From: a virus
Length of the DNA: 30,640 nt
Reading direction: 5' to 3' (one strand)
Virus record (IMG/VR): IMGVR_UViG_3300005529_000544
Span: 1 to 30,640 of that record
The position numbers were made by a program, and so were the translations under genes. The notes beneath the pieces were generated by a model. The model did not search any database and was not told where the DNA came from. It was given only the letters and a program-made list of their open reading frames with translations. How positions within the stretch are numbered: the stretch's first letter is position 1; each line of letters starts with the position of its first letter. This document shows positions 5,592-27,270 of the stretch, one piece after another.

Positions 5592-5596
5592 AAAAT

Positions 5597-5863: not shown

Positions 5864-5869
5864 AGTTTG

Positions 5870-6469: not shown

Positions 6470-6481
6470 ATCGTGCGCCGG

Positions 6482-9089: not shown

Positions 9090-10016
9090 TCATGCCGCCT
9101 CCTCCTCGATTCCCTCGACCGCGACGCAATGGCAGTTGCAGACATTGGCCGGCGAACCCGCGCCGTCGCCGGGATACATCAGGCTTTCGCCGCCGACGAT
9201 GAACGGCCCGTCCACCGGCACGTTCTGGTTGCGCGGATCGTCCTCGGCCTCGGCGTGCCATTCGCGCACGTTCGGCAGATGGCTGGTGAGCCAGCGCTTG
9301 GTGGCGATGCCGGCCTGCTTCATCCCCTCCTGCCGCGCGTATCCAAACGCGGCGGCGGTCTCGGTGCTGGCGATGTTCGCCGCGCGGCCTTCACTGATCT
9401 GGTCGAATTTATCGCTGACCCGTTGCGCGATTTGTTTCAGCGTGCTCCCCTCGTCGAGCGCGGTCTTGATTTCATCGGAAATCTCCGCGTGGATTTCATC
9501 GGGGATGTCCGCGAGCTTGTTTTCGCGTTCGTTTAAAAATGTGAGTGCCTTCGGGTCGGCCATCACGAACGGCTCGTCGCGCCCGAGTTCCTCGAAAAGC
9601 TGGTCGCCCGCGAGCTGGAGCGCGTCGGTCGATTCACTGCGCAGCGTGGCAAAAAGCCCGTCGCGAAACTCATCGGGATCGAACACGAGATCGGACACGA
9701 ACCGTGTGCCTTCGGCACTTTTTACCGCCGCAGCTTTGAGGCGTGCGCTTTTCTCGATCTTCCGCAGCGTCTCGAATTTCGCATAATCGAGCTGCCGCTT
9801 GATCGCCGCGTGCATCGAGGCAATCACCGGTTCGCGCTTTTTAAAATGCGCCGCCGCCAGCGCCACTTTTTTCGGGTCGCGTGTTTTGCCAGCCTCCGAA
9901 TTTGCGCACGCGAGCGCGGCGACGATGCGCCGTTGCGCCGGCACTGGAAGCAGCGTGATGGCTCGCAAGGTTCGGGCAATTTGTGGGCGGGTCAGCATGT
10001 GATAGGTGATGGTCAT
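9090..10016 (-). CDS. Head morphogenesis protein, Mu F / SPP1 gp7-like
   Basis: 308 residues. The C-terminal half carries the family signature: ISEGRAANIASTETAAAFGYARQEG, then RWLTSHLPNVREWHAEAEDDP, then GGESLMYPGDGAGSPANVCNCHC. The pattern 'W.....(V/D)R..H' followed by 'L..PGD.......N..NC.C' is the conserved end of the SPP1 gp7/Mu F minor head protein family, which binds the portal and is ejected or needed for head assembly. The ATG at 10016 overlaps the end of the gp36-like gene by four bases. In Mu, F precedes the protease and coat genes; here it follows them. Confidence 0.85.
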   Translation of the reverse strand: MTITYHMLTRPQIARTLRAITLLPVPAQRRIVAALACANSEAGKTRDPKKVALAAAHFKKREPVIASMHAAIKRQLDYAKFETLRKIEKSARLKAAAVKSAEGTRFVSDLVFDPDEFRDGLFATLRSESTDALQLAGDQLFEELGRDEPFVMADPKALTFLNERENKLADIPDEIHAEISDEIKTALDEGSTLKQIAQRVSDKFDQISEGRAANIASTETAAAFGYARQEGMKQAGIATKRWLTSHLPNVREWHAEAEDDPRNQNVPVDGPFIVGGESLMYPGDGAGSPANVCNCHCVAVEGIEEEAA

Positions 10017-11248: not shown

Positions 11249-13537
11249 TTACTGCGAGGTGAGCAACTGGCCGGCGTTCGCCTGGCCGAGCGCGGTTCCA
11301 TACATGATGGAAATGCGGCGGGTGGCCGTGCCTAGTTTGTGATCGACGTATTCGACCAGCATCACGGAGATGCCGAGGTCGGGGTCTGTGACGGTGGTGA
11401 CGTTGCCGTAGGAGCTGCCGGGCAGCGCCTGCGTGTAGTCATTCGGCATGCGGGTCGCGACCACGAGCGCGCTCTTGCTGCCGCCAAAGCCGACGATATG
11501 GTCGGAGCCGGCGGGCAGGTTCGGAGCGTCCACGACCGTGAAGCCATGCACGTCGGGCAAGGTGCCGTCCGTGATGATTCCCGATTTTTGGAACGCCGCG
11601 AGCGTGACGATCGCATTGTCCTGGGCGAGCTTGCCGAAATACGTGCTGTAAAGCAGCAGCGTCCGGTTCATCGCACCCATCGGCACGCCGAGGATATTCA
11701 GCGGCACCGCCATGTTGATCACATCCGCGCGGCTGAAGTTCGCAGCGGCCTGCGTCACCGGTGTCGCGGTGAAGTTAGCAGCAGTGATGTTCGCATAGAG
11801 CGCATCGACGATGGCCTTGGCCAGCGCGTAGCTCTGCGCGGGAGCAGCCTCGCCAAAGAGGTTGCGGACCGTGCTCGAAAGCGTGTTGCTGTCGAACGTG
11901 ATCGGCACGCCTTTGTGCGCGTTGATGGTCACGCTCACGTCCGTGGTCGTGTCATCGCTCGCCGTCCAGCCGGTGCTGGTGTTGTAGGTCTGCACCGTGG
12001 GGATGCTCACGATCCGCGTGGTGACCGTCTGGTTGTAGCTCGCCGGCTGGTCGCTGAAATCGGTCGAAAACCGGGTCAGCGCCGGGAAGGTGAGTTTCAG
12101 CAACTCCAGCACGCGTTGCACGACGAGCGTGCCGGCGAGTGTGCCGACGCTGTTCGCCGAGATGAGCGGGCTGTCCATGATCCGCGAATCGTGGCGGAAC
12201 TCCGCCGCGTAGATCGCCGCCATTTCGCGCGCCAGTTTCGATTTCTCCGTGCGGTCGGTGCAGGCCGAGTTTTTCGCGACGAGCGCCTCGTAAGCGGAGA
12301 AGACGTTGCGCGGATCGGAGCCGGTGACGACGATGCGTTCCGCGCCATTGCTGGCGACGATGCGCGTTTCGAGCGCCTGCGCGCCGCCCCATTTCGCATA
12401 GATCGGCTCGAATGTGGCCGGGTTGTCGGTCACGTTTTTCTCGATCTCGGCGAGCGCCGCCGTGTCCTTGGCCGCCACCGCGCCGCGCTTCACCATATCC
12501 GCGACGAATTGCTTCGCGTGGGATTGGCGACGGGCGAGGTCGTCGGCTTCGAGTTTGGCAGCCTTGGCCTTGAGCGATTCGTTTTCGAGCGTGGTCTGGC
12601 TCGCTTTCAGTAGCGCCTCTTTCGCTTCGATTTTCGAGGCGACGAGTTCGTCATTTTGTTGTTTGGCTTTGAGAGCCGATTGCTCGCTTTTCAGCGCGTC
12701 AATCTCTTTTTGAAGCTCCGTGTTTTTGGCTTGGAGCGCAGCCAGTTGTTCAGGTGTCATATTGACTAGGTTTTCCTTTTGTTGTGATGGATGCGCTCCA
12801 TCGGCGTTTTTCGCCCACAAGGGCAAAATCTGGTTAAAGGCCGGGTCGTTCACGAACCCGCCCATGTTCGGCTTCGCGTCCTCGCGGCAGACGATCCGCG
12901 CCGGTTTGGCGCGTTTGTTATCCACGTGGAATACAGGCGAGAATTGCCGGTAATCCTTCCCCTCGATCGCCGCGCGGCCGCTGCCGGTGAGTTCCCCGCT
13001 CACGTAGATGCCCGGCGCGGGCGTGTCGCTCCACTCGTAGCGCTCCGGCCAGAAGCTGGCAGGGCCATCCTCGTGGTTGAGATCAAAATAAGGGCGCTTG
13101 CCTTTCGCGGTGAGCGCCTCGTGCTGCGCCTGCAGCGCCGCCGCGCCCGCGCGATCCGCGAGCACGTCGATCGGCAACCCGATGCCGCCGCCCACGGGCG
13201 TGATCGATTGCACCCCGCCCGGCATATACATAAACCGCCGCGTCGCCGCGACCGGCCCGGCATGCGAGAAAATGGCGATGGTGTCCTCGACACTTTCCTG
13301 GCCGCCCTCGTTCTTCGCGGTGATCGGTTCGTCGATTGGCGCCGCGCCGATGGTGGAAAGCTCCACGTCATTCGGCACGAAAATCACTTGCACGTCGGGA
13401 TTGTTTTTGTGCCAGTCGTTAAAAATGGCGACGAGGCGAACCATGCACTCACTCGTGACGGACCGGCTGTATTTCACGACCAGCGTTTCGCCGGGCTTGA
13501 GGCTTATGCTTTGAAGGGCTTCGATTTCGATGTTCAT
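11249..13537 (-). CDS. Fused head maturation protease (I-like), scaffold and major coat protein
   Basis: 762 residues. Residues 1-95 are a small separate domain (LKPGETLVVKYSR..., VQVIFVPNDVELS). Residues 96-240 match the Mu I / phage I-like protease: RPYFDLNHEDG (H155), WPERYEWSDTPAPGIYV, and GKDYRQFSPVF (S200). Residues ~256-345 are coiled coil (MTPEQLAALQAKNTELQKEI...), as in a scaffold. Residues ~405-762 look like a coat protein: ISANSVGTLAGTLVVQRVLELL, VSIPTVQTYNTSTGW, ...GFTVVDAPNLPAG. Mu makes I, scaffold Z (internal start in I) and coat T from separate reading units; here all are in one frame. An internal ATG at 12760 with an upstream AAGGA may yield scaffold-coat alone. Coupled by four bases to the portal gene. 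Confidence 0.8.
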   Translation of the reverse strand: MNIEIEALQSISLKPGETLVVKYSRSVTSECMVRLVAIFNDWHKNNPDVQVIFVPNDVELSTIGAAPIDEPITAKNEGGQESVEDTIAIFSHAGPVAATRRFMYMPGGVQSITPVGGGIGLPIDVLADRAGAAALQAQHEALTAKGKRPYFDLNHEDGPASFWPERYEWSDTPAPGIYVSGELTGSGRAAIEGKDYRQFSPVFHVDNKRAKPARIVCREDAKPNMGGFVNDPAFNQILPLWAKNADGAHPSQQKENLVNMTPEQLAALQAKNTELQKEIDALKSEQSALKAKQQNDELVASKIEAKEALLKASQTTLENESLKAKAAKLEADDLARRQSHAKQFVADMVKRGAVAAKDTAALAEIEKNVTDNPATFEPIYAKWGGAQALETRIVASNGAERIVVTGSDPRNVFSAYEALVAKNSACTDRTEKSKLAREMAAIYAAEFRHDSRIMDSPLISANSVGTLAGTLVVQRVLELLKLTFPALTRFSTDFSDQPASYNQTVTTRIVSIPTVQTYNTSTGWTASDDTTTDVSVTINAHKGVPITFDSNTLSSTVRNLFGEAAPAQSYALAKAIVDALYANITAANFTATPVTQAAANFSRADVINMAVPLNILGVPMGAMNRTLLLYSTYFGKLAQDNAIVTLAAFQKSGIITDGTLPDVHGFTVVDAPNLPAGSDHIVGFGGSKSALVVATRMPNDYTQALPGSSYGNVTTVTDPDLGISVMLVEYVDHKLGTATRRISIMYGTALGQANAGQLLTSQ
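12758..12778 (-). promoter_or_regulatory. Possible internal translation start for scaffold-coat
   Basis: Within the protease-coat fusion, AAGGA (12778-12774, - strand) lies 13 bases before ATG at 12760, at the exact junction between the protease domain and the coiled-coil scaffold (codon 260). Mu gene Z, the scaffold, starts internally in gene I in the same way. Spacing is longer than ideal, so this is a suggestion. Confidence 0.35.
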
Positions 13538-15144
13538 GCGAGGGTTTCCGCGAGGGTTTTTAGTTCGCGGGCAAAAATGGCGTCGTCGGGTTGGGCGGCG
13601 AGTGCCGCGAGCTTGCTCTCAAGCGGGTCGTCTTCCCCTGAGCGCGCCTTCGGGGGAGTCACTTCCGAAGGCGACTTTTCGTTGTTTAACGACCCTGTTT
13701 GTGGTGTTGAATTTTGTTTGCGCACGACCGGTGCGCCTTTTGCCGGTGCAGGCTGGTCGAACTTGGCGCGCATATAGCCTTCATCGAGGTCGAAAAGCTG
13801 AGCGAGGATTTGATCCCTTTGCGCATCTTCCAGGCTGCCCTCCTTTTTCTCCAGAAGCCGGCACTCCGGCAGCAGCGCGCCGTCGCCGTAAGTCAGCGTG
13901 AGGATGCTCGGGATGAGCTGGCCGTTGAGCACCGCGCAGGCGAATTTGCCGGCGGCTTCGATCCGGTCCTGTTTCACATCCTTTTCCACCGAGCCGAAGG
14001 CTTTGCCGCCGCCCTTGGTGGCGCTCTGGCTGCCGCTCATCGTCTGCCCCAGGATGAGCAGGCGCGCGTAGCGGTCGGCACGGTCGAGCAGCTCGCCCTG
14101 CGGGCTGTGGTCGCCGGTCTTGCCGGTGTCTTTCAAGTCGAGCGTGGTGCCGGCGGGGAAGGCCGCCCAGCCGGCGCTCCCCATGTTTTGCAGCATGTTG
14201 CAAATCGCGTCCACGGTCGATTGCGGGGCGTTCGGGTCGTAGTTCGCCCAGCGGAACGGCAGGCCGAATACCTGCGCGAGATTCATCAGCCAGTCGGCGG
14301 AGAAATTCGCCGCGCACCACCACCAGGCGAGCGCGCGGAACATCGCGCTGCCAAACGGCGTGCCGCTTTGCGCCTTGTGGATTGCGATCAAAAATTTGTG
14401 CGGCGGGAATGGAGTGACGTTCGTGTTGAGTTGCGCCTGGGTGAGATACGAAGATGAGCCGGGCGCGGAGGCCGTGGCGGTGGCGTTCGGGTTGAGGCCG
14501 AGCACGCCATCCTGTCCCCAAGCGAATGCGGTCGGGTCGGCCCACCACGTCGCGCGCGGGGCCATGAACTGGCCGAGCGATGGCGTCTGCTGGATTTGCC
14601 AGCCGATTTCCAAGACCGAGACGCCGCAGAACCACGCGTGCAAAATATCGCTGATCGTCCCGTCGAGATCGTTCTCATCCGCCGCCGGGTTCGGGCGCAT
14701 CCCTCGCAACGCCGCCCCGGCCACCTTGCAACGCTCGATCGCGTCGTTCGTCGGGTCGGTGTCCTCCTCCGCATACGGCTCGAACACCATTTTTTTGCGC
14801 TGCACGCCGAGGACGATTTCCTGCACGCACGCGGCCAGCTCCGGCCAGCTATCGAGCATCAGGCGGAAAAGCGCGGCCTGCTGGACGTGATAGCCCGACG
14901 CCGCCCCGCGCAGCGTCATCTCGATATATTGCGGTGTGATCGCCGCGAGCTGCGGCATCAGCCATTGGTAGCCGCCATTCTGCGGCCGCAGGATGCGCGC
15001 GATGGATTGCGGGCCGTTATTCGGACTCACGGTCAACGTCTGCGTGGTCGCAGGCACAATCGCCGTCGACGTCTTGGCCGCCACGCGGCTTTTTTCGCGG
15101 CGGTTGAGCCGGTCGATCACTGCGTTGTCGCGCGGGGTCATCAT
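13534..15144 (-). CDS. Portal protein, Mu gp29-like (DUF935)
   Basis: 536 residues, the usual size for the family. Typical DUF935 features: LRGAASGYHVQQAALFRLMLDSWPELAACVQE near residue 80-110, where 'l....sGd....q..L...m...dp.l......R' is usual; VLEIGWQIQQTPS (family 'sv.Ei.W'); FGLPFRWANYDPNAPQS; LLILGQTMSGSQSATKGG (family 'il.gqtlTt..g..gs'); and FGSVEKDVKQDRIEAAGKFACAVLN. The C-terminal 100 residues are a charged tail. The protein forms the dodecameric DNA gate at the capsid vertex. Overlaps both the terminase (upstream) and the coat fusion (downstream) by four bases. Confidence 0.9.
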   Translation of the reverse strand: MMTPRDNAVIDRLNRREKSRVAAKTSTAIVPATTQTLTVSPNNGPQSIARILRPQNGGYQWLMPQLAAITPQYIEMTLRGAASGYHVQQAALFRLMLDSWPELAACVQEIVLGVQRKKMVFEPYAEEDTDPTNDAIERCKVAGAALRGMRPNPAADENDLDGTISDILHAWFCGVSVLEIGWQIQQTPSLGQFMAPRATWWADPTAFAWGQDGVLGLNPNATATASAPGSSSYLTQAQLNTNVTPFPPHKFLIAIHKAQSGTPFGSAMFRALAWWWCAANFSADWLMNLAQVFGLPFRWANYDPNAPQSTVDAICNMLQNMGSAGWAAFPAGTTLDLKDTGKTGDHSPQGELLDRADRYARLLILGQTMSGSQSATKGGGKAFGSVEKDVKQDRIEAAGKFACAVLNGQLIPSILTLTYGDGALLPECRLLEKKEGSLEDAQRDQILAQLFDLDEGYMRAKFDQPAPAKGAPVVRKQNSTPQTGSLNNEKSPSEVTPPKARSGEDDPLESKLAALAAQPDDAIFARELKTLAETLA

Positions 15145-16793
15145 ACTCCCGCAAACCTCCGTGGCTCAAAAATGCGGTGTGGTGCCGCCGAGTTGCCGAT
15201 GCGGATTTTGGAAACGGTCTCGGCGTTCAATGCGCCGGCATTATTCAAGAGCGCCCACTCCGCGAGCTTGCCGCTGTCGAAGGTGTCGCCATGTTTGCCG
15301 TCGCTATCGGGCGTGCATTTGTAGCGGCCCTGATCCTTCACCGTGAGCCGGTGATCGTCCTTGATGTAATCCGCCGCAGGCAACACCGTGCGCCCGTCAT
15401 TCACGGCGGCGCAGTAAAGATCGCCGAGATACGTCTTGTAATTGATCGCGTCGCGATAACCGGACGGCAACGGCTCCACGCTTCCGCCGCCGAGCACCAG
15501 CTCGACCGGGATGATGCGCGAAAGATCGTCCTTCGTTTCCTCCGCCGCGAGGCGTTCGTTGCTCGCGTCGATGCAAAGCCGGCGCGCGGGGCCGCCGGAA
15601 TTGCGTGCGCGGATCGTGGTGACGATGCGCGCCAGGTAATCGCTCATGACCGCGCGCTTTTTCGTCTTAAAAACCACGACGAGCCGCTGGTGGCGTTCGC
15701 CGCCGCAATTCTCCGTGACGGTGATGCTCGACGGGTTGCTCGTCTCGCCGGTGGTGCTCGCCACGTCGAGGCCGATGCCGACCGGGCCGCTCGTGAGCGT
15801 CGCCGCGAGCAGTGTGAGCGCCTGCCGGAAATCGCCTTCGTTCTCGACGAAAACAAAGTTGCACTTTCCGACGCCGCGCCGTTGCGCCGAGATCAGCGCA
15901 ACCAGGTCGATCGCCGCCGCGCCGCCCGCCTTGTGGTTGAGCGCATACGTCTCATCCCAGCCGCTGCGGAATTGCGGGAAGACGCGGCATTGCGCGTAAG
16001 TCATTTTTTCGCCGCGATCGTCAAAGAGCGCATGCCCGGCGGCGTAGGCATCCTTCAGCGCCACGCGATGCACGAGGATGCCCTGCTGGCCGATGTAGAG
16101 ATGCCCATCCGGGTTCGCGGGGAATTGTTCGTCCTCGCTCTCCGCCGTGATCTCGCGCGGCATCGTCATTTCAAAATAGGGATGCCGGTCGTTGCCCGAG
16201 AGGTTCGAGGCGTAGATGATTTTTAAATCGGGCGTGTCGCGCATCATCGGGTCGGTGGCGATGCGCAGTTCGTTCTCGAAATTCGCGTTGGTGAAACCGG
16301 ACTCGTCGCGCAGCACCGTCGCGCGCCAGCTCCGCGCGGTCGCCGGGTTCGGCGCGATCACCTGCAGCCGCGAGTAATGTGTGCGGTCAAAGTAAAGGCG
16401 CAGCTCCATGCGCGAGCTTTGGTAAAGCTCTGCAAAATCCTCCGGCGAAAGTCCGGTGAGCAGTTTGTCCTTTGACGAGTCCGCGACTTTGAAATCGAGG
16501 TCGCGCTCGCCCGCGCCGTGGTCGAAGACTTCGCGCACAGCGGCTGCTTCATTGGCAACGATCATCGCCTGCTCCGCCGCGCTGAGCGTGACGCCGACCA
16601 GTTCCTTGCCGAGCAGGAGCGACGCGCTCGCGGCGATGACCATGCGGCCCGGCGATTTCGAGATTTCGTCAAAGCCGATGTCGCCGAGCGTGGTCGATTT
16701 CCGGCATCGGCGCGCCCAGTAGAGCGCGATCTGGCGCACCTTGCGCACGGCGACCAGCGCGACGTTTTGATAGGGACGGCGCTCGCGTTTCAT
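15141..16793 (-). CDS. Terminase large subunit, Mu gp28-like
   Basis: 550 residues; the packaging motor and nuclease. ATPase: adenine/Walker A region YWARRCRKSTTLGDIGF (K32, S33) and Walker B ATVLRDESGF (D163, E164), then IIYASNLSG as coupling motif. Nuclease of RNase H fold: GIGLDVASTTGETSNPSS (D343), RLCIDASNERLA (D409), and KHGDTFDSGKLAEW (D503). Walker A differs from the common RRxGKST in having Arg31 where Gly is expected. Coupled by four bases to the small-terminase-like gene and the portal. Mu-like phages package by headful with this subunit. Confidence 0.88.
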   Translation of the reverse strand: MKRERRPYQNVALVAVRKVRQIALYWARRCRKSTTLGDIGFDEISKSPGRMVIAASASLLLGKELVGVTLSAAEQAMIVANEAAAVREVFDHGAGERDLDFKVADSSKDKLLTGLSPEDFAELYQSSRMELRLYFDRTHYSRLQVIAPNPATARSWRATVLRDESGFTNANFENELRIATDPMMRDTPDLKIIYASNLSGNDRHPYFEMTMPREITAESEDEQFPANPDGHLYIGQQGILVHRVALKDAYAAGHALFDDRGEKMTYAQCRVFPQFRSGWDETYALNHKAGGAAAIDLVALISAQRRGVGKCNFVFVENEGDFRQALTLLAATLTSGPVGIGLDVASTTGETSNPSSITVTENCGGERHQRLVVVFKTKKRAVMSDYLARIVTTIRARNSGGPARRLCIDASNERLAAEETKDDLSRIIPVELVLGGGSVEPLPSGYRDAINYKTYLGDLYCAAVNDGRTVLPAADYIKDDHRLTVKDQGRYKCTPDSDGKHGDTFDSGKLAEWALLNNAGALNAETVSKIRIGNSAAPHRIFEPRRFAGV

Positions 16794-17455
16794 TGCGGGA
16801 TTGCCACCTTTCCGCTCGCTTCGAGCGCATCCACATCCGAGAAGGCCGCCTTGCGCATCGCGGCGATCTGGTCCGCTTTCGAGAGGTTGCTGTTTGCGAT
16901 CTCCGCCGCGCGCACGCGCAACGCTTCGTTCAACAACATTTTCGCCGCGTCGGTTTCAAATTTTTCGCGGTCGAGTTTTTGCGCCTGCTCCTTGAGCTGC
17001 TGGTCGCGTTCCTTCAACTCGCGGGTTTGCTTTTGGTCGATTTCCTTCAGCTCCAAATCCTGCGCCTTGAGCATGTGCCGGATGAACTCGGCGATGCGTT
17101 CCTCGTTCCTGAGTTCCACCGGTTTTTGCAGCTCCTCAAAAATGCACTGGCCGATCATCGTGCTCGCGGCGGAAGTGAAGCCGGCGGCGGAAAAACTTTT
17201 GTTAATCAACTCCGCGCGCTGCGCGTCGGCGCGGATGCTGGAGAGTGTCGCGGAAAAGGCTTTGTCGGCGCGGCGGTTTTCGAGCCATTTGCCGAGACGC
17301 CCGGCGGAGAGCGTAATATCAAACTCCGCGCGCAACCACGCCACGCCCGCCTCCAGCGGCACGGTCTCGCAATGCGCGAATACCTGCTCCTGCTGCGCCT
17401 CGCTGAGCTTCGAGTCCAAAACCGAATCGCCGCGTGTTTTACGGTTGTTTGGCAT
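16790..17455 (-). CDS. Putative small terminase, Mu gp27-like (DUF3486-like)
   Basis: 221 residues from ATG 17455 (MPNNRKTRGDSVLDSKL), which overlaps the previous TGA by one base; a longer frame to 17680 would overlap it fully. Residues 15-70 look like a helix-turn-helix: SEAQQEQVFAHCETVPLEAGVAWLRAEFDITLSAGRLGKWLENRR. Residues 120-190 are a coiled coil (HMLKAQDLELKEIDQKQTRELKERDQQLKEQAQKL). This order, N-terminal HTH then coiled-coil oligomerisation, is that of small terminases, and the gene lies right before the large subunit. DUF3486 assignment is by resemblance and position. Confidence 0.7.
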   Translation of the reverse strand: MPNNRKTRGDSVLDSKLSEAQQEQVFAHCETVPLEAGVAWLRAEFDITLSAGRLGKWLENRRADKAFSATLSSIRADAQRAELINKSFSAAGFTSAASTMIGQCIFEELQKPVELRNEERIAEFIRHMLKAQDLELKEIDQKQTRELKERDQQLKEQAQKLDREKFETDAAKMLLNEALRVRAAEIANSNLSKADQIAAMRKAAFSDVDALEASGKVAIPQ

Positions 17456-17715
17456 CAGACTCCCTTCCAGTGCGCAGGAATTGAAATTTCGTAGGGCTTG
17501 CGCAGCGGCGTGACGCGAGCCACAAAACCGCACGCGTCCTCGTCGATGAACGAGAAGCAAAAATTCAGGAATTGCTGCCACGCATTCGCGAGCGCGAGCA
17601 GCCAGCCGAGCCAGAGCGGGCGCGGGATCGGACAAAAGATTTCCAAGTCCGTGAACTGGACGGGACAAAACCAATACCACCCGATCGCGATGATGGTGAT
17701 TTTGCGTTTGTTCAT
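17455..17715 (-). CDS. Small protein, unknown, hydrophobic centre
   Basis: 86 residues from ATG 17715 (MNKRKITIIAIGWYWF), chosen because it overlaps the preceding TGA as ATGA. The centre (PIPRPLWLGWLLALANAWQQFLNFCFSF) is hydrophobic and Trp-rich and may associate with a membrane. Two clusters of Cys (FCP, FCF, DACGF) are present. Family unknown; the position parallels small genes of the Mu 24-27 block. Confidence 0.5.
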   Translation of the reverse strand: MNKRKITIIAIGWYWFCPVQFTDLEIFCPIPRPLWLGWLLALANAWQQFLNFCFSFIDEDACGFVARVTPLRKPYEISIPAHWKGV

Positions 17716-17963: not shown

Positions 17964-18373
17964 TTTTCGCGGCCCTCCAGCCGTCCGAGCGAACGCACGA
18001 TGTCGTCCATCTTTGTCCAAAGACGCCGGTTGGCGTCGCTGAGGATTTTGATCATCTCATCCTTGCGCTGCTCGCCGGCGCGCATGAGATCGAGTTCCAT
18101 CTTTGATATTCCGCCGCGAAGCATATCAAAGTCGCGGTCGAGCTTCGTGACGTCCTCCTTGATGCGGAGCAGTTCCCCCGGCAGTTTCTCCAGCGCGCCG
18201 ATGCGTCCGTCGAGCGTGTCGAGTTCTTCATCCACCGGCGGGCGTTTGCCGAACGCCTTGCGCGATTCGTTGTAAATTTTCAGCACCAGCAGGATCACGC
18301 CGCCGAGCGAGACGAGCCCGATGACGACCACGAGAAACGGCCCTGCGTTTTCCATTGTGAGTTCCGCGATCAT
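17960..18373 (-). CDS. Membrane-anchored coiled-coil protein, Mu gp25-like (DUF2730-like)
   Basis: 137 residues. One transmembrane helix at about 12-33 (FLVVVIGLVSLGGVILLVLKIY), then a helical, heptad-rich tail (LDTLDGRIGALEKLPGELLRIKEDVTKLDRDFDMLRGG...). Mu gp25-type proteins have this design and lie just upstream of the gp26-gp28 genes. Overlaps the next gene by ATGA. An in-frame second Met at codon 7 (18355) is an alternative start. Function unknown in the family as far as I know. Confidence 0.6.
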   Translation of the reverse strand: MIAELTMENAGPFLVVVIGLVSLGGVILLVLKIYNESRKAFGKRPPVDEELDTLDGRIGALEKLPGELLRIKEDVTKLDRDFDMLRGGISKMELDLMRAGEQRKDEMIKILSDANRRLWTKMDDIVRSLGRLEGREK

Positions 18374-18490
18374 TTACCCTTTCTCCTCCTCGTGCGGCGT
18401 CGGCGTTCCCGTTGCCATGCGAGCAGCGTCGCCAGCAAATGCTGGCTTCTCGCGGCGATCTGTTTCCGAATTTGCCGTTTCATTCCTCAT
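18374..18490 (-). CDS. Very small ORF between the 63-residue gene and the gp25-like gene
   Basis: Two overlapping candidates fill this 120-base stretch. Frame 1 (18490-18374, 38 residues, MRNETANSETDRREK...) shares ATGA with the previous stop and its TAA abuts the next ATG. Frame 2 (18483-18372, MKRQIRKQIAARSQHLL..., very basic) begins after GAGGA and shares ATGA with the next gene. Both fit the coupling used here and neither resembles a known protein, so one is probably real but which is open. Confidence 0.35.
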   Translation of the reverse strand: MRNETANSETDRREKPAFAGDAARMATGTPTPHEEEKG

Positions 18491-18678
18491 GCGAAAAGTT
18501 CCGAATCGGAAATACCCAGTTCCTCTTGCGCGATTGCGATTGCGAAACACAGCTCGACGGACGCGCGATGGAGTTCCCTGCCGGCACGCGCGAAATCCGG
18601 CTTGTCCCCGGAGAGCGCGAAATTGGCGAGTTCGAGCCTTCCATGCGCTTCCCTGCAGCGTTGAAAAAAAGTGTTCAT
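18487..18678 (-). CDS. Small helical protein, unknown
   Basis: 63 residues from ATG 18678 (MNTFFQRCREAHGRLELANF...), overlapping the TGA of the DPBB gene as ATGA. Wholly helical in appearance (RAGRELHRASVELCFAIAIAQEELGI), no signal or membrane segment. Placed between lysis and packaging genes; no function assigned. Confidence 0.5.
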   Translation of the reverse strand: MNTFFQRCREAHGRLELANFALSGDKPDFARAGRELHRASVELCFAIAIAQEELGISDSELFA

Positions 18679-19118
18679 TCGAAAAGGGTCGTGTCGAGCG
18701 TGATCACCGCGACGTCGTCGGTCTCCAGCCCGAGGTAGGCGGCGAGGCCGGGCGAGAGATCGGCGATGCGCCCGGTGTCGCGGGTGGGGTTGCCGTCGAT
18801 CAACGTCCCGTCGCCGGGGCCGTAATCGACCGGGCGGGCAAAGGCGATCCGGCCATTGGCCGGGTTGCAGACGCGCACGACCATCCGGCGCAAAAGATTT
18901 TTTGGCGTCTCCGCGTAGTTCCACCGCATGGCGATGTAATAGGCGTCCGGGTTCAAGCCGCGCGCGTAGCCGGTGCTGCCGCGCGTGAGAAATAATGAGC
19001 TAAACCACCATTTGCCGGCATCCGCCTGGCCGATGAGCGCGAGCCCTTCCGTCTGCCCGACGCCTTTGTCGTCCGGTCCGCCGAAGGTGGATATTTTGCC
19101 CTGGTATTGCTGCCTCAT
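18675..19118 (-). CDS. RlpA/DPBB-type protein, candidate endolysin
   Basis: 147 residues from ATG 19118 (MRQQYQGKISTFGGPDD), preferred because it overlaps the stop of the tiny membrane peptide as ATGA; longer starts run into a hairpin and the tRNA. The double-psi beta-barrel pattern is visible: YIAMRWNY, then MVVRVCNPANGRIAFARPVDYGP, then GRIADLSPGLAAYLGL, then DDVAVITL. The core 'v.V.n..(N)G....v.V.D.GP........iDLS...a..lG' is that of RlpA lytic transglycosylases and expansin-like proteins; the Asp in VDYGP and ADLSP are the best catalytic candidates. It sits next to the holin, so a peptidoglycan-cleaving lysis role is the likeliest inference. It has no signal peptide, in line with a holin-dependent endolysin. 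Confidence 0.6.
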   Translation of the reverse strand: MRQQYQGKISTFGGPDDKGVGQTEGLALIGQADAGKWWFSSLFLTRGSTGYARGLNPDAYYIAMRWNYAETPKNLLRRMVVRVCNPANGRIAFARPVDYGPGDGTLIDGNPTRDTGRIADLSPGLAAYLGLETDDVAVITLDTTLFE

Positions 19119-19198
19119 CGCAAATCGCCTCCGCTCGAAGGCCATGTCCACACCAGAACGATCAGCCCCAAAATGAAGAGCGTGGGCAGGTAGATCAT
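19115..19198 (-). CDS. 27-residue single-span membrane peptide
   Basis: ATG at 19198 encodes MIYLPTLFILGLIVLVWTWP followed by SSGGDLR and a TGA that overlaps the next ATG (ATGA). Seventeen or so residues are continuously hydrophobic, enough for one membrane span. It lies between holin/tRNA and the DPBB gene, so a second holin-type, pinholin or antiholin-like role is possible. There is no clear Shine-Dalgarno site, and the small size makes chance occurrence possible. Confidence 0.4.
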   Translation of the reverse strand: MIYLPTLFILGLIVLVWTWPSSGGDLR

Positions 19199-19215
19199 CG
19201 GTAGTAAGCGGGCTG

Positions 19216-19253
19216 CCCCGCGCGCCCGTTCCCCCCGGACGGGACGCGCGGGG
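19216..19253 (-). terminator. Strong hairpin after the tRNA
   Basis: A 14-pair stem with one bulged A: CCCCGCGCGCCCGT pairs with ACGGG-A-CGCGCGGGG around a 9-base loop. It starts 21 bases past the tRNA 3' end on the transcribed strand and lies before the membrane-peptide gene. No T-run follows on the - strand (four T follow on the + strand). It may protect or define the tRNA 3' end, or attenuate transcription. Confidence 0.5.
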
Positions 19254-19274
19254 ACTTTTGACCACAGTGCAAAG

Positions 19275-19348
19275 TCGCGGGGGATGGATTTGAACCATCG
19301 GCCTTTTGGTTATGAGCCAAACGAGCTACCAGACTGCCCCACCCCGCT
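19275..19348 (-). tRNA. tRNA-Met(CAT), initiator-like
   Basis: Folds as a full cloverleaf. Acceptor AGCGGGG/CCCCGCG with an unpaired A1-G72; D-arm GGGC/GCTC with loop AGTCTGGTA; anticodon stem TTTGG/CCAAA with loop CTCATAA (anticodon CAT); variable AGGCC; T-arm GATGG/CCATC with loop TTCAAAT; discriminator A73. CCA is not encoded (CTT follows). Initiator traits: a 1-72 mismatch and the purine11-pyrimidine24 pair (G11-T24) typical of initiators; body similarity to E. coli tRNA-fMet is very high. Departing trait: only two of the three G-C pairs at 29-31/39-41 are present. It lies between the holin and DPBB genes in the late transcript. Confidence 0.9.
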
Positions 19349-19364
19349 GTAAAAAAAGATTTGA

Positions 19365-19640
19365 TCACGGTTTGTTGACGACTTGGAAAGCGGGTTGCGC
19401 CCTGGGCGCGGCGGCGACGAGCGCATCCTGCTTCGCCTTTTCCGCCATGATTTTTTGCACGATGCTCCAGCCGAGCGAGAGCAGCGTGACGGCTGCGCCG
19501 ATGGCTTTTTGCGCGGTGTCGTTGTCGGCGTAACCGTTCGTGACCAGGTAGACGCCGCCGCCGGTGAGAAAATGCCGCACCTGTCCCGCGAGGATCGGGC
19601 GGCCGTATTTCAAAACGAGATCGAGAATGAATTTAGGCAT
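19365..19640 (-). CDS. Putative holin, Pam3-gp28 type
   Basis: 91 residues. The core ILAGQVRHFLTGGGVYLVTNGYADNDTAQKAIGAAVTLLSLGWSIVQKI matches the pattern of the Pam3-gp28 putative holin family ('RH.lt..GGylv..G........a.Ga...l.s.gWS...K'). Two hydrophobic segments lie at about 25-37 and 47-63, followed by a charged tail. Holins permeabilise the inner membrane so the endolysin can reach the wall. It is followed by the tRNA and then by the membrane peptide and DPBB gene, a compact lysis cassette. Confidence 0.7.
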   Translation of the reverse strand: MPKFILDLVLKYGRPILAGQVRHFLTGGGVYLVTNGYADNDTAQKAIGAAVTLLSLGWSIVQKIMAEKAKQDALVAAAPRAQPAFQVVNKP

Positions 19641-19654
19641 TTGTTTTTTTGATT

Positions 19655-19720
19655 GCCACGGAGGGCACTGAGATCGCTGGGGGTTTAAAAAATCTTCGTG
19701 TTCTCTGTGTTCTCCGTGGC
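19655..19720. repeat. Imperfect inverted repeat, GCCACGGAG...CTCCGTGGC
   Basis: Arms of about 19 bases (16 matching) with perfect 9-base ends, around a 28-base A/T-rich centre. It fills the gap between the lipoprotein and holin genes. Similar 'gccacggagaacacagag' intergenic repeats are, to my recollection, scattered in several environmental bacterial genomes; if so this is a host-type repeat that entered the phage. Could also form a hairpin in the late mRNA. Confidence 0.6.
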
Positions 19721-19727
19721 TGATTTT

Positions 19728-20234
19728 TCAGGGTTGTGTGACGACTGCCGGGGCCGCCGCGACGCTCAAGTCCAGCCCCTGCGCCGCCGCTTCCTTCGCC
19801 ACGTCGGGCGGCAGATGTTTCTTGATTGCCTCCGCGACCACGCCGGTGATCGCATCCGCGACCGGCTTCTTGAGCGCGGGATCGCTGATGCCATCGGCGA
19901 TGGTCTGATGCACCACCGCCATCGGCGCATTGGTGCCGATGGTCGTGCGCAGTGCATTCGCGGCACCGCTGAGAGCGTCCGCTTTTAAATCGACCGGCTG
20001 ACCGGTGAGGAGCTGGCTGAGCGCGGAAACGCCGATGTTCAGCGCCGCGCTGGTGGCAAAGCGTTTTGCCTCCTGCGTCGCCGGCGAGTTCCACGCCGCC
20101 TCAAACTTCGCCTTGTCAAAATGCTTTTTGCCATCGGCACCGGTGGTGCAGGCGGGAGTGAAAAACGGGATGGCGAGGAAGGCGCTGGCGAGCAAAACGA
20201 ACGCAGCGCTGCGAGGAGAAATGCGTGGGTGCAT
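19728..20234 (-). CDS. Phage lipoprotein, first gene of the late transcript
   Basis: 168 residues from ATG 20234. N-terminal signal (SAAFVLLASAFLAIPFF) followed by a lipobox-like FTPAC, so Cys29 is likely lipidated and the protein exported to the periplasmic face. The mature part is Ala-rich and helical (FDKAKFEAAWNSPATQEAKRFATSAALNIGVSALSQLL...). In a lysis cassette, a small lipoprotein suggests an outer-membrane spanin-type role, but it is longer than typical o-spanins and has no clear match. Other options: superinfection exclusion. Confidence 0.6.
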   Translation of the reverse strand: MHPRISPRSAAFVLLASAFLAIPFFTPACTTGADGKKHFDKAKFEAAWNSPATQEAKRFATSAALNIGVSALSQLLTGQPVDLKADALSGAANALRTTIGTNAPMAVVHQTIADGISDPALKKPVADAITGVVAEAIKKHLPPDVAKEAAAQGLDLSVAAAPAVVTQP

Positions 20235-20255
20235 ATCCCAGCCTTGGCAACAAAA

Positions 20256-20339
20256 GTGGAAACACCGTGAGCCCTTTTTTTATGCTTGACAAAAACGCGG
20301 CTCTTGCAGGTGGAAACGTTCCACCTGTCAAGTGGAAAG
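20256..20339. promoter_or_regulatory. GTGGAAA repeat cluster and 9-base palindrome upstream of the late genes
   Basis: The 213-base gap 20235-20447 contains GTGGAAA three times on the + strand (20256, 20310, 20332) and a perfect inverted repeat CAGGTGGAA-acg-TTCCACCTG at 20307-20327. A TTGACA (20330-20325, - strand) lies against the palindrome's left edge, pointing toward the late genes, but no good -10 is found 17 bases away. It is probably a regulator- or transposase-binding region that controls late transcription; the factor is unknown. Confidence 0.45.
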
Positions 20340-20447
20340 AAATCTTTTTTAACGCGTTTTTTAATCCGCAGCGCTCAATCCGACTCCACAACAAACCGTA
20401 ACACTTTTTGGTCGCGTGTGTGTTTTGTCTGTATGTTGAACAGCGGA

Positions 20448-20918
20448 TTATTCCGCCATCGCCGCAAAAGTCCGCCACTCCGTTTCACCCTCGCGTAAAA
20501 CAAATGTTTCGTCGTTGATCACGCCCGCCGTTTTGAAGTCGAGCAAATCCTTCCATGTAAACGGACCTTCATTCGCGCCTTCGTTGCTGTAGTAAAACGC
20601 CGGCTCCTTGTGCAGACCGAGAGGGTCGGTGTTGGCTGGCGCTCGTGTGGGTTTCGGCGCTTCCACTTGTTTAAATGTCATGCGCTCCACGGCGTCAGCG
20701 GCGCGCTCGGCGTGGTGGGCCGTCTTAGCGATCAGACCCATGACTTGCGCGAAGCCTGCGAAAAAGAAAGCGTTAAGGAGTAATGATACGAAGGCGATTA
20801 CTGAAACGCGGTTGGTGTCGCTGAATAGCATGATTGTCGCTGGCAACAGGCCAAAACAACAAAGCCCCGCGAACAGGTTGAACATCGTCGCGAGAATCGG
20901 CTCGTTATACTGTTTCAT
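20448..20918 (-). CDS. Membrane protein with a GYF_2-like domain
   Basis: 156 residues. Two transmembrane helices at about 10-32 and 38-64 (MFNLFAGLCCFGLLPATIMLF; VIAFVSLLLNAFFFAGFAQVMGL). The C-terminal part YYSNEGANEGPFTWKDLLDFKTAGVINDETFVLREGETEWRTFAAM is a GYF_2/DUF4339-type domain ('W.......G..s..el......g.i...t.Vw..g...W'). It ends the repressor transcript (downstream of repressor and zinc-ribbon gene). Expressed in the lysogen, so a superinfection-exclusion or host-modification role is possible, but not shown. Confidence 0.6.
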   Translation of the reverse strand: MKQYNEPILATMFNLFAGLCCFGLLPATIMLFSDTNRVSVIAFVSLLLNAFFFAGFAQVMGLIAKTAHHAERAADAVERMTFKQVEAPKPTRAPANTDPLGLHKEPAFYYSNEGANEGPFTWKDLLDFKTAGVINDETFVLREGETEWRTFAAMAE

Positions 20919-20919
20919 A

Positions 20920-21102
20920 TCAGTGGGTGAATACGTTGCTCTCGCAACTCAGAACGAAGAAACCGAAGATCAGGCCGATGATGATCGCGGCGAGCAACCC
21001 AGTTGCGCTTTGTGCTTTTTTAAGAATCTGTCCGCAGTGCGGGCAGGTTTTTGCCGTGGTAGAAACGGCGTTTGTGCAGGCGGGGCATTGCGTGAGTTTC
21101 AT
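20920..21102 (-). CDS. Small zinc-ribbon membrane protein
   Basis: 60 residues from ATG 21102 (MKLTQCPACTNAVSTTAKTCPHCGQIL). Four Cys in CPAC...CPHC form a zinc ribbon at residues 6-23; one transmembrane helix follows (LLAAIIIGLIFGFFVLS). The start codon lies 2 bases from the repressor stop, and the 21150 start would enter the repressor gene. Same transcript as the repressor and the GYF_2 protein, so likely expressed in the lysogen. Function unknown. Confidence 0.6.
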   Translation of the reverse strand: MKLTQCPACTNAVSTTAKTCPHCGQILKKAQSATGLLAAIIIGLIFGFFVLSCESNVFTH

Positions 21103-21104
21103 AG

Positions 21105-21764
21105 TCACTTCATGAAGTTGCGGCGCATTTCCCCGACCGGATAAAGCCACACGAAATCCTCTTCGTGCAGATCGAGCGGAGGGTAGGCCGCGTTATAGGA
21201 TGAGAGCCGGAAGGTTTTGCCATCGGTTCCCGTGCGTTGAAAGAGTTTGCAGATCACGCCGCCGGCCTTGAGCCGTGCGACCACCACGTTATTACTAATG
21301 GGCTTTTGCGAGCAGAGCAGGATCACGATGTCGCCTTCCTGAATCACCGGCATCATAGAGTCGCCACGCACCGTCACCGCGATGGCTCGCGGGTCGCGGA
21401 TGCCACCGCGTTCCAGAAATCCATCCCAGTCCACCACGTCATCAAAGTCAATCATCGCCTTGCCAGCCGTCGCCCATGAGATGAGCGGAATCTTTTTCTC
21501 CGCGCGATATTTGGCGGCGGGTTCGGAGGCGTGCGCTCTCAGCTTGTTTAACTCGTGCTCGATATCTCCCTCGCCCGAGCGCAGCCACTCAAAATCAAGT
21601 CCCGTGCGTTCGGCCACCTTGTGGAGCGTGCTGTCAAAGGCGCGGGCTCCGTCGCGCCAGTTGATGATATTGCCGGGACTCACATTGAAGATGCGCGCGA
21701 GGGCATTGATACCGCCTGCGGCGTCGATGAGCGCCTGAATCCTCGCAGCAAATTCAGAGTTCAC
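21105..21764 (-). CDS. CI-like repressor with S24 (LexA-type) autoprotease domain
   Basis: 219 residues from GTG 21764; a longer frame begins only at TTG 21833 within the operator region. Residues 5-60: helix-turn-helix (IQALIDAAGGINALARIFNVSPGNIINWRDG). Residues 95-200: S24 peptidase with ISWATAGKA, scissile A100-G101, VRGDSMMP (Ser136) and VVARLKAGGVICKLF (Lys173). The family self-cleaves when RecA* is formed, so the prophage should be SOS-inducible. Mu's own repressor c is not of this type, so this is a lambda-like repressor on a Mu-like genome. It diverges from the Cro-like gene across the 21814-21842 palindrome, a standard repressor/operator arrangement. Confidence 0.85.
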   Translation of the reverse strand: MNSEFAARIQALIDAAGGINALARIFNVSPGNIINWRDGARAFDSTLHKVAERTGLDFEWLRSGEGDIEHELNKLRAHASEPAAKYRAEKKIPLISWATAGKAMIDFDDVVDWDGFLERGGIRDPRAIAVTVRGDSMMPVIQEGDIVILLCSQKPISNNVVVARLKAGGVICKLFQRTGTDGKTFRLSSYNAAYPPLDLHEEDFVWLYPVGEMRRNFMK

Positions 21765-21813
21765 AATGGCAATGGTCGCCCATGTAAAAAAATTTGAAAG
21801 TTTTTTCTTGCAA

Positions 21814-21842
21814 GCATTCAGACTGAATGACAAAGTGAATGC
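21814..21842. promoter_or_regulatory. Candidate operator between repressor and Cro-like gene
   Basis: ATTCAG-A-CTGAAT (21816-21828) is a perfect 6+6 palindrome, nested within GCATTCA (21814-21820) ... TGAATGC (21836-21842), so one half-site is shared between two inverted repeats. It lies in the divergent gap. This is what a dimeric CI/Cro operator should look like. Promoter -35/-10 pairs cannot be assigned with confidence. Confidence 0.6.
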
Positions 21843-24321: not shown

Positions 24322-24934
24322 ACCTGCCACACTGGCGACCGACGCCGACTTTCACATCGTCGAGCAACCGAGGTGGATGACCTTTCACCGGCTGGCGATG
24401 CAGAGCGCCCGCGAGGCGGTGCTTTACGCCGCGCTCTGCGGGCTGGAGCTGATGCGCGTGCGGGCAGGGATGCCGCGCGGCGAGTGGCTGCCGTGGCTGG
24501 AGGAGCACTTCCCAGGCAGCGCGCGCACGGCCCAGCGTTACGTGGGCGTGGGCGAGATTCTGGAGTGCCGGATGAGAAATGCGACACATGGGTCGCATTT
24601 GACAACCGTGTTTAACACGCTGCTCGACGGAGGCGTGTTGCCTGATGACCGGCGCGAGGCGGCGCTCGATGCGCTGCACGAGATCGCCCCGGCGTCGACC
24701 CCGCGCCAGCTTTTCCTCGAATGCGGTGTGCTCAAGCACGCTGAGAGCCCGCACGCGGCGGCGAAGAAGGCGAAGAAACAACTGGCGAAACAGGCGGGCA
24801 TCGACACGCCGATCATGGAGACATGGCTGCGGATGAACCGCGCGAAGCGGCTCCGGTTCGTGCGCGAAAACATCGACGTGCTGGAGGAATTGATCGCGGA
24901 GGCGAAGAAGCTCCGCCGGAAAGGAGCGATCTAA
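24299..24934 (+). CDS. DUF3102 family protein
   Basis: 211 residues from ATG 24299. Residues 31-82 match the DUF3102 core: AVLYAALCGLELMRVRAGMP, GEWLPWLEEHFPGSARTAQRYVGVGE, i.e. 'a...a...G..L...k....hGeW..wl......s.rtAqrym'. The rest is helical and basic (HAAAKKAKKQLAKQAGIDTP..., KAKRLRFVRENIDVLEELI). DUF3102 occurs in phage and plasmid early/replication regions and is thought DNA-linked. Its TAA overlaps the transposase ATG (TAATG), so the two may be translated together. Confidence 0.75.
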   Translation: MNALAITKPATLATDADFHIVEQPRWMTFHRLAMQSAREAVLYAALCGLELMRVRAGMPRGEWLPWLEEHFPGSARTAQRYVGVGEILECRMRNATHGSHLTTVFNTLLDGGVLPDDRREAALDALHEIAPASTPRQLFLECGVLKHAESPHAAAKKAKKQLAKQAGIDTPIMETWLRMNRAKRLRFVRENIDVLEELIAEAKKLRRKGAI

Positions 24935-27270
24935 TGAACCTGCAAATTCTACCCGAACAGGAACGGTTGCCGGCGGCGGCATGGGCCGGGTTGCTCGGCA
25001 TCAGCGAAAGAGGGTTTCGCCTGCGCGCGCCCGAGCCGGTGATCGAGGAGCGCGGAAGCGGCGGCATGCAGACTTTCCGCTTTGGCGACCTGCCGGAGGA
25101 TTGGCGCGCACAACTCGCCGCACGGCTGGAGGAGGATCGCGGACGCGATTTTTCCTCGCTGGTCTCCTCGCAGTCGGTCGGCTGGAAACCGCGCATGGAA
25201 TTTGCCGCCTTCCCGCAGGCGACACGGGAAAAGGCAAAAAAGATGTTCGACGTGATGGAAGCTTACTTTGCCACGCTGGAGGCGACCGGACGCCGGGCGA
25301 GCGCGGAGGAACGGGCGCAGGCGATGTTTAAAAGCCTCTTTAGTTTCATCGACAAGGACACACTGGAGCTTGTCGAGCGCACCATCAGCGCGCACCGCGT
25401 GCGCGGGAAGGCGAAGGCGATCGAGCGGCTCGGCGGCTGGGAATTACTCAAGGCGCAACGGATCGCGCTCACATTCCTCTGCGATAACAAGAACGTCCCC
25501 CACAAGAACCGGCTCGAAATCCCCGCTGCGTTCGTGAAGGCGTTTCGCGCGAAATGCCTGGAGCCGGGCGTCGTGAGCGTGAGCGCGGCCTTTATCTATT
25601 TTGAGCTGCTCTGGCAGCATGGCGAGGAAGTGCCCGGACTCGGGCGGGCGCGGCGCGAGGATGAGCCGTTCCCTTTCAAGCTGGCGCAACTGCGCAGCGC
25701 CAAGGTAATCCCGACCCGAGCGGCGCGATTGATGGCCACGCTCGGCAAAGGCCACGCAATGCTCAATGGCGCGCTCCCGTCGCTTCCGTGCAGTCGCGCG
25801 AAGCTCGGGCTGCGGCAGCGCATCGAGTTTGACGACAAACGGCCCGATCTCAATGTCATCGGCGACGATGGCCGGATTTTCCAGCCGTGGATTTATTTCG
25901 CGCGCGATGTCGCCACCGGCCAGATCATCGACTTTGCGCTGCGGCCAGATGGGAACATGAAGCAGCGCGACGTAGTGGATTTGACGGTCGCGGTGATCCG
26001 GTTCAGCGGCTTCGCGCCGGGTGCGATGTTGAAATTCGAGCACGGCACGGTCTCGATCTCCGAGGATCGTGCGGAGTATCTGCGCAAGCAATTCGGCCTG
26101 CAAATCTCCCGCACCGAGCTGCTCGGCGGACGCGGCGCGACCGGCCTCTGGCGCGAGAAGACGCGCGGCAACCCGCGTGGCAAACCTTACATCGAGTCGT
26201 TCAACAACGTTTTTACTCACCTGATCGGCTTCTTGAAAGGGCAGCGTGGCAACGATGCGCGCGTGGCGATGCCCGACATGCACGGCGACCCGAACCTCAC
26301 CCCCGCCACGCTCACGCACAAAAATTACCGGCTCAAAAACTCAATCACCGAGGAGGCGCTCCTTTGCGCGCAAAACGCGGTGATGTGCCAGTATTTCGAG
26401 ACGGGCGAAATCCTCGACGCCCGTGCGGCCTGCGCGCAAAGCGGCATCGAGGCACCGCTGGTGCACCTTGCCGATTTTCTCGAATGGCTCAAGCTCGCGA
26501 TCGCCTACTACAACCGGCGGCGCGGGCACCGGATGGACGGTTTCGCGAAGATCGAGGTCAACGGGAGGCTGGTGACCGAAAGCCCCGACGACAAGGAAAA
26601 GCGCCTGCTCGCCGAGATGGGCGCGCGCGGCGAATCGCTCCTGCGGATCAGCGAAAAAGATGCGGCTCTGCTGATGATGCGGATCGCGCGGGCAACATTC
26701 ACCGCCAACGGCTGCGTGATCAATGGCTGCCGGTTCTGGCACGAACACAGCCGCGTCGTGCACGAGGCGCAACGCGTGGGTAAAAAGGAATTTCTGATCA
26801 TTCACGATGTGGACCGTCCATTTGAGATTCACGTCCTCAAAAACCCCGTCTCGCACATCGACGAGTGCAACGAAAAACTGGCCGATGACGCCGAGAAACC
26901 GGAGCACCTCGAAACCATCCCGATGTTTGTGCCGCCGGAGCGCACCGACCCCGAGGCAATGATCCGCCGCAACGAGCGGCAGGCGATCAATCACAACCGG
27001 ATTGCCCGCGAGGCGTTGATTGGTTCACAGGTTTACATCGAGGCCGAGACCGCCCGGCGCGAAGGCAACACCGCCGCGCTCGATGCGCTCCGCGCCCGTG
27101 TCTGCGGCCTCACCGCACAAGTCGCGCGCGAGCTGCCGGAGAGCGAACTGGCCGGCCGGATCAACAGCGCGGAATCCCGCGCGGCGCAGCGCGATGCGGC
27201 CAAGCCGAAATACATCGAGTCGCTGGGCGATGAGCGCGACTGGGCCGCGACGCAGGAGGATGAGACATGA
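24934..27270 (+). CDS. MuA-like DDE transposase with a Glu at the second catalytic position
   Basis: 778 residues (MuA is 663) from ATG 24934. Residues 14-65 resemble the MuA N-terminal enhancer-binding winged helix (AWAGLLGISERGFRLR..., FRFGDLPEDWRAQLA). Catalytic core at 293-425: LRQRIEFDDKRPD (D300/D301), GRIFQPWIYFARDV, LKFEHGTVSISE (E369), and GKPYIESFNNVF (E421). MuA needs D269, D336 and E392; spacing here (68, 52) is close to 67 and 56, but E369 stands where Asp336 should be. Residues 595-645 (VVHEAQRVGKKEFLIIHDVDRPFEIHV) look like the Mu C-terminal beta-barrel. The C-terminal extension (650-778) is charged. The enzyme pairs phage ends and joins them to target DNA. Confidence 0.88.
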   Translation: MNLQILPEQERLPAAAWAGLLGISERGFRLRAPEPVIEERGSGGMQTFRFGDLPEDWRAQLAARLEEDRGRDFSSLVSSQSVGWKPRMEFAAFPQATREKAKKMFDVMEAYFATLEATGRRASAEERAQAMFKSLFSFIDKDTLELVERTISAHRVRGKAKAIERLGGWELLKAQRIALTFLCDNKNVPHKNRLEIPAAFVKAFRAKCLEPGVVSVSAAFIYFELLWQHGEEVPGLGRARREDEPFPFKLAQLRSAKVIPTRAARLMATLGKGHAMLNGALPSLPCSRAKLGLRQRIEFDDKRPDLNVIGDDGRIFQPWIYFARDVATGQIIDFALRPDGNMKQRDVVDLTVAVIRFSGFAPGAMLKFEHGTVSISEDRAEYLRKQFGLQISRTELLGGRGATGLWREKTRGNPRGKPYIESFNNVFTHLIGFLKGQRGNDARVAMPDMHGDPNLTPATLTHKNYRLKNSITEEALLCAQNAVMCQYFETGEILDARAACAQSGIEAPLVHLADFLEWLKLAIAYYNRRRGHRMDGFAKIEVNGRLVTESPDDKEKRLLAEMGARGESLLRISEKDAALLMMRIARATFTANGCVINGCRFWHEHSRVVHEAQRVGKKEFLIIHDVDRPFEIHVLKNPVSHIDECNEKLADDAEKPEHLETIPMFVPPERTDPEAMIRRNERQAINHNRIAREALIGSQVYIEAETARREGNTAALDALRARVCGLTAQVARELPESELAGRINSAESRAAQRDAAKPKYIESLGDERDWAATQEDET

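Follow-up and report, generated by a model that had tools for sequence, protein, structure and literature searches.

An unusual initiator-type tRNA gene in the late region of a Mu-like prophage

The stretch of DNA analysed here (the window) comprises positions 1 to 30,640 of IMG/VR record IMGVR_UViG_3300005529_000544 and forms the end of contig C28 of a MAG of 3.68 Mb that is 91.5% complete. It holds a Mu-like prophage, as is evident from its MuA- and MuB-like genes, its Mu-type portal gene and its homologs of Mu I and Mu F. The named relatives of the portal gene come from one Verrucomicrobia MAG and from Chthoniobacter flavus, and the host is therefore placed, by association, in the Verrucomicrobiota. 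The transposase and the MuB-like ATPase are encoded on the plus strand; the genes for lysis, putative terminase, portal, protease/head protein and Mu F-like protein lie on the minus strand, as does a single tRNA gene. The features are:

9090–10016, minus strand: Mu F-like protein (PF04233)
11249–13537, minus strand: Mu I-like protease fused to the major head protein (PF10123; phrog_283)
13534–15144, minus strand: Mu-type portal protein (PF06074, E 1.2e-64)
15141–16793, minus strand: putative terminase large subunit (Mu gene order and relatives)
16790–17680, minus strand: putative small terminase (by position and synteny only; precedes TerL in the related loci L248, L237 and L192)
18675–19118, minus strand: 147-aa protein of no known family, earlier a candidate endolysin
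19115–19198, minus strand: ORF for a predicted membrane peptide of 27 aa (read from the sequence; overlaps the next start, ATGA)
19215–19255, minus strand: strong hairpin directly 3' of the tRNA gene (RNA fold of a 63-nt stretch, -34.5 kcal/mol)
19275–19348, minus strand: initiator-type tRNA(CAU), CCA not encoded (ARAGORN, Rfam RF00005, comparison with the host initiator, initiator covariance model)
19365–19640, minus strand: holin, 91 aa (PF23987 Phage_holin_10, E 1.4e-14)
19728–20234, minus strand: putative lipoprotein of the lysis region, 168 aa (lipobox-like N-terminus read from the sequence)
21105–21833, minus strand: CI-like repressor (phrog_4, E 3.4e-27)
24823–27270, plus strand: MuA-like transposase (phrog_310, E 1.2e-17)
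27406–28584, plus strand: MuB-like transposition ATPase (PF13401/PF05621; phrog_296)

The putative large terminase subunit gave no PHROG or library match, and its assignment is based on gene order and relatives; the putative lipoprotein gave no family match in Pfam and PHROG searches. A 1136-aa protein (3108–6518, minus strand) with near-threshold matches to GH43 and to a K1-lyase C-terminal domain is probably a tail spike with depolymerase activity. A further Mu-like element, divergent from the first, is present in the host genome (G000:C19:1634–4760, L288; terminase pieces 34–38%, portal 21%). The 16 kb of it that were read revealed no tRNA, the contig end removing its lysis side.

The tRNA gene had been described in the first-pass annotation as lying between a holin and a candidate endolysin. 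The holin, which lies upstream at a distance of 16 nt, is confirmed by its family match, while the 147-aa protein on the other side matched nothing in PHROG or PDB and its identification as an endolysin is unsupported. A 207-aa ORF beginning within the tRNA gave no Pfam or PHROG match. No sigma-70-like promoter site was found in 18300–21300; together with the short gap to the holin gene this makes co-transcription with the late genes, as first proposed, most likely, and the tRNA would then have to be cut out of late RNA. The hairpin at 19215–19255 is not followed by a T run and is absent from the terminator list. It is GC-rich and very stable and might serve as an RNase III site or shield the 5' end of the message that follows.

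ARAGORN reports one tRNA in the whole window, tRNA-Met(CAT) at 19274–19348 on the minus strand, and Rfam RF00005 matches it over its full length at 19275–19348 (61.2 bits, E 3.9e-11), in agreement with the complete CAT-anticodon tRNA originally noted there. Written stem by stem, its sequence is AGCGGGG TG GGGC AGTCTGGTA GCTC G TTTGG CTCATAA CCAAA AGGCC GATGG TTCAAAT CCATC CCCCGCG A. The final A73 is followed by CTT in the DNA, hence CCA is not encoded. Of the 39 other tRNAs of the MAG, 22 have an encoded CCA (ARAGORN calls), so its absence is normal in this genome, although the host initiator, like most bacterial initiators, has it.

In the survey of Ardell and Hou, positions 1 and 72 are mismatched in 98.6% of bacterial initiators and paired in 99.5% of elongators (PMC5143459). 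The prophage tRNA has an unpaired A.G here, a combination recorded in 1 of 4438 bacterial initiators in the same survey. At positions 11 and 24 the survey has A:U in 4430 of its 4438 initiators, C:G in nearly every elongator and no entry for G.U (PMC5143459); the prophage tRNA has G.U, which keeps the purine:pyrimidine order and not the exact A:U. Its anticodon stem contains U29:A41, G30:C40 and G31:C39, so that among the pairs 29–31:39–41 only 30:40 and 31:39 are G:C; the host initiator also has just two (A:U at 29:41). The formylation determinants of initiator tRNA, namely G2:C71, C3:G70, G4:C69 and A73 (PMC9976931), are all present. The initiator covariance model scored the prophage tRNA at 86.3 bits, as against about 90–95 bits for host initiators, and its body, likened at the outset to E. 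coli fMet tRNA, differs from the latter at 13 of 73 positions. Judged by identity elements and pairwise identity, on which the class call rests, it is an initiator with two almost unseen details (A1.G72 and G11.U24). The first-pass annotation had named assignment as an elongator or pseudo-tRNA as grounds for withdrawing its reading, and the identity elements, the intact pairing and the model score speak for neither. An elongator or Ile-CAU tRNA was likewise rejected, as among the 39 host tRNAs only the initiator exceeds 68% identity.

The host initiator gene is intact on another contig (C26:8659–8735). It is the nearest of the 39 host tRNAs (84%; next best 68%), with 61 of 73 positions identical, and a leftover fragment of a host tRNA, the other ground for withdrawal named at the outset, or a duplicate of one is thereby rejected. 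Eight of the 12 differences form four compensated pairs (28:42, 29:41, 50:64 and 51:63). One of the others turns A:U into G.U at 11:24, one lies in the D loop, and two replace C.A at 1:72 by A.G, both sides having changed with the positions still unpaired. The 20 stem pairs other than 1:72 all hold despite the 12 substitutions. When 12 substitutions were placed at random in the host initiator, 253 of 300000 mutants kept all of these pairs. The compensated stems and the retained 1:72 mismatch argue that this tRNA, or the lineage from which it came, was under selection as a tRNA, plausibly as an initiator; the selection that maintained the pairing may have acted in a previous cellular owner. Both tRNAs have the same anticodon loop, CUCAUAA. 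When 388 genomes of the phylum were searched for a source gene, only the window's own genome came within 3 mismatches of the 5' 41 nt, and the best plasmid match was 86.5%.

Relatives of the prophage were gathered by portal and terminase searches (28 IMG/VR contigs and prophages of related genomes). In all 57 loci were checked, 44 of which cover the tRNA region, the window being uncounted and near-duplicate contigs retained. By the initiator covariance model an initiator-type tRNA is present in two of the 44, L237 (also read as L247) and L319. The other 42 lack it, including the closest by terminase, L248 (TerL 71%), and the tRNA is therefore dispensable. That ARAGORN had missed tRNAs in the relatives was considered and rejected, since outside the window, L237/L247 and L319 no score of the covariance model exceeded 17 bits. 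Across the host order the model's match list was filled by host genes. The L237 portal is 63% identical to that of the window. Both the L237 and L319 tRNAs have C1.A72 and A11:U24 in sequences far from a host-type copy, and both lie upstream of the putative terminase gene and on its strand, roughly where the tRNA stands in the window. The L237 tRNA (5642–5715) overlaps the 3' half of an ORF for a 91-aa membrane protein (5485–5760) whose start and stop overlap the neighbouring genes, and maturation of the tRNA would destroy that message. The L319 tRNA has a C.A mismatch at 29:41, and an intact host-like fMet gene (4176–4252) and an integrase-like fragment (13601–13804) bound the prophage region. 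Its history may therefore differ; here a Mu-type head module may have switched to site-specific integration at fMet.

The suggestion that initiator tRNAs are rare in phages was not borne out. The prophage tRNA matched 103 phage records at E 1e-3, an initiator consensus matched 117 at E 1e-8, and a scan of IMG/VR for the initiator core gave at least 120 matches; for comparison, searches with two elongators gave 1243 and 1102 phage records at the looser threshold of 1e-6. Phage initiator tRNAs are thus known, scattered through many phages and not very rare, and that of the window is an unusual variant. In the 76 matches that lie farther than 300 nt from a locus end, 1:72 is C.A in 29 and a wide mix in the rest, and it is unpaired in 57. 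Individual phages, Erwinia phage pEa_SNUABM_47 (PMC7760394) being one, have been noted to carry an fMet tRNA; our literature search found no paper on the function or placement of phage initiator tRNAs.

Among IMG/VR loci that include 2.5 kb on both sides, the tRNA stands alone in 18 of 21 cases for initiators versus 13 of 39 for elongators (Fisher p 1.2e-4), and standing alone looks more typical of the former. The large ORFs downstream of lone initiators belong mostly to terminase families and those upstream mostly to replication families; downstream of elongators terminase is not among the top families. Counted per IMG/VR cluster, 7 of 32 have a terminase downstream on the strand of the tRNA and 2 have one upstream (p 0.09, which by itself is not significant). 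Among annotated phages, initiators that stand alone or almost so adjoin genes for terminase, portal or capsid in RHph_TM3_3_3, phiLM21, PaMx74, Javan74, R6L/ZS04, CN1A, P3.1 and ct7L0027. RR1-A is an exception, and the initiator tRNAs of phiKX1 and CRP-212 look like attachment sites, an integrase adjoining that of phiKX1. A count of 8 of 11 phages near terminase gives p 3e-5 if 15% of the genome is assumed to count as near, a value that is indicative only, these being hand-picked small phages. In the elongator control 3 of 6 small-phage cases were also in late, lysis or head regions, those of CobraSix, 276BB001 and DSS3_VP1 lying among lysis, capsid or head genes. A terminase-side slot specific to initiator tRNAs was accordingly not upheld, and late placement looks general for lone phage tRNAs.

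Several phage initiator genes are unannotated in public records, namely the initiator-type tRNA-Met of R6L, ZS04, CN1A, P3.1, Javan74 and Pan5 (loci L337, L469, L338, L341, L467 and L339); that of Pan5 overlaps a CDS called omega repressor. The tRNA-Met of Sinorhizobium phage phiLM21 (L464, 3999–4075) is on the minus strand in the record and on the plus strand, that of the terminase, according to ARAGORN. We also observed tRNA arrays with the T loop GTGCRA for GTTCRA (G at position 55), 11 tRNAs in L242 (G037:C67, 3413–5173) and 10 in L088, and a second initiator-like copy with a GTGCRA T loop at L241:280–356. L242 carries an HNH endonuclease-like ORF.

The question of what tRNAs do for phages is an old one, and it is usually answered by codon supply or by evasion of nucleases. 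Inside genes an initiator tRNA is useless for codon supply, and a lone one in a late operon is therefore a clean test of initiation control. The present tRNA, lone, diverged and structurally intact, puts this third idea to the test, and its near-unique combination of A1.G72 and G11.U24 tests the latitude of the initiator rules. We regard it as real, mechanistically suggestive and of a known but little-studied kind. It is reasonably probable, in our view, that the prophage encodes a functional, late-expressed initiator tRNA that aids initiation or re-initiation in the overlapping late operon, where four core late junctions are 4-nt gene overlaps; its expression, charging, formylation and benefit are what we infer. 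Overlaps of 4 nt are common in phages without a tRNA, so these junctions are consistent with such a role and not diagnostic of it. The tRNA would be made when the late operon is transcribed, and RNase P and 3' trimming would excise it from the polycistronic transcript. Its 3' end would be completed by the CCA-adding enzyme of the host, host MetRS would charge it and the host transformylase would formylate it. It would then join the host initiator pool during translation of the virion and lysis genes, and the extra initiator would help initiation, above all re-initiation at the overlaps. In E. coli, re-initiation requires a formylatable, P-site-binding initiator tRNA (PMC2268962). As A1.G72 occurs in one and G11.U24 in none of the surveyed initiators, formylation and P-site use are not assured, and since lone elongators share the late slot, position is no specific argument for initiation. 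The unencoded CCA and the lack of the gene in 42 relatives also count against this reading. A boost to late initiation is our best guess, and it fits the overlapping late genes. One might go further and suppose that small phages of many lineages have converged on keeping one initiator tRNA of their own, placed where early genes give way to late ones, as an initiation device for virion genes, some versions (A1.G72) being tuned unlike the host initiator for preferential initiation of phage messages or immunity to host control; this we consider a long shot.

Other roles might be proposed. The tRNA might replace or protect the initiator pool against host defences such as VapC-type anticodon nucleases or AtaT-type acetylases, its altered acceptor end and anticodon stem making it a poor target. 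It does differ from the host initiator at 1:72 and in two anticodon-stem pairs, and anticodon-nuclease-resistant phage tRNAs have been proposed (PMC10264068). The latter, however, would owe their resistance to changes in the anticodon loop relative to the host, and here that loop (CTCATAA) is unchanged. In the case of VapC-LT2 in Shigella flexneri the fMet tRNA is generally avoided by phages (PMC10264068), which also counts against evasion, and a search of the host genome found one PIN-domain gene only, in a 406-aa frame unlike a small VapC. We judge this rather unlikely. Somewhat less likely still is a role in cis, in which tRNA processing would sever the holin part of the late RNA from the part for the downstream genes and set their ratio and timing, with the hairpin protecting or regulating the downstream message. 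The close spacing to the holin gene, the lack of a promoter-like site in the region searched and the strong hairpin all suit it, as does L237, where maturation must cut the overlapping message; given the anatomy of the locus, some cutting of late RNA in cis would occur whatever else the tRNA does. Yet this purpose would be served by any tRNA or by a plain RNase site, the initiator-specific features in all three prophages are left unexplained, and the fold of the full 171-nt stretch is just modestly more stable than that of shuffled sequences (z -1.78).

The gene might, finally, be a passenger with no phage role, taken from another cell or phage or left as a relic of an attachment site. Its patchy presence among the covered relatives would agree with this, and other phages do integrate at initiator tRNA genes, as the adjoining integrase of phiKX1 and the integrase-like fragment near L319 indicate. 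MuA/MuB transposition, on the other hand, does not depend on a tRNA as attachment site, the gene lies in the interior and is complete with all its stems paired, and the phylum and plasmid searches found no source of the same sequence; we hold this to be the least probable of the three.

Set beside known systems, the working late initiator tRNA that we favour resembles bacterial initiator tRNA-fMet (that of the host and of E. coli) in its CAU anticodon, unpaired 1:72, R11:Y24, GG:CC at 30–31:39–40, G2:C71, C3:G70, G4:C69 and A73. The host initiator has C.A at 1:72, A:U at 11:24 and an encoded CCA, in place of which the prophage tRNA has A.G, G.U and none. tRNA-dependent lysogeny (PMC10865867) similarly involves a temperate phage with a tRNA able to stand in for the host's, but there a tyrosine integrase breaks the host tRNA, whereas the window encodes a transposase and MuB and the host initiator is intact. 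RHph_TM3_3_3, phiLM21, Javan74, PaMx74, R6L/ZS04, CN1A and P3.1 likewise carry a single initiator-type tRNA, either where the late region begins or inside it (CN1A, unlike the window, has a tRNA-Trp too). These phages are unrelated to the window, and none of those examined has its tRNA inside a Mu-like lysis cassette. Enterobacter phage CobraSix also has a single tRNA beside the holin in a late operon; unlike that of the window it is an elongator, a tRNA-Arg between antiterminator and holin, and codon supply is the usual explanation for elongators. Among phages the best match is the initiator-type tRNA-Met of Caulobacter phage CcrColossus and relatives (93% over 71 nt), which differs in a U1:A72 that can pair, in a terminal TCCA and in belonging to a 280-kb genome with several tRNAs, but which shares with the prophage tRNA the anticodon stem UUUGG/CCAAA.
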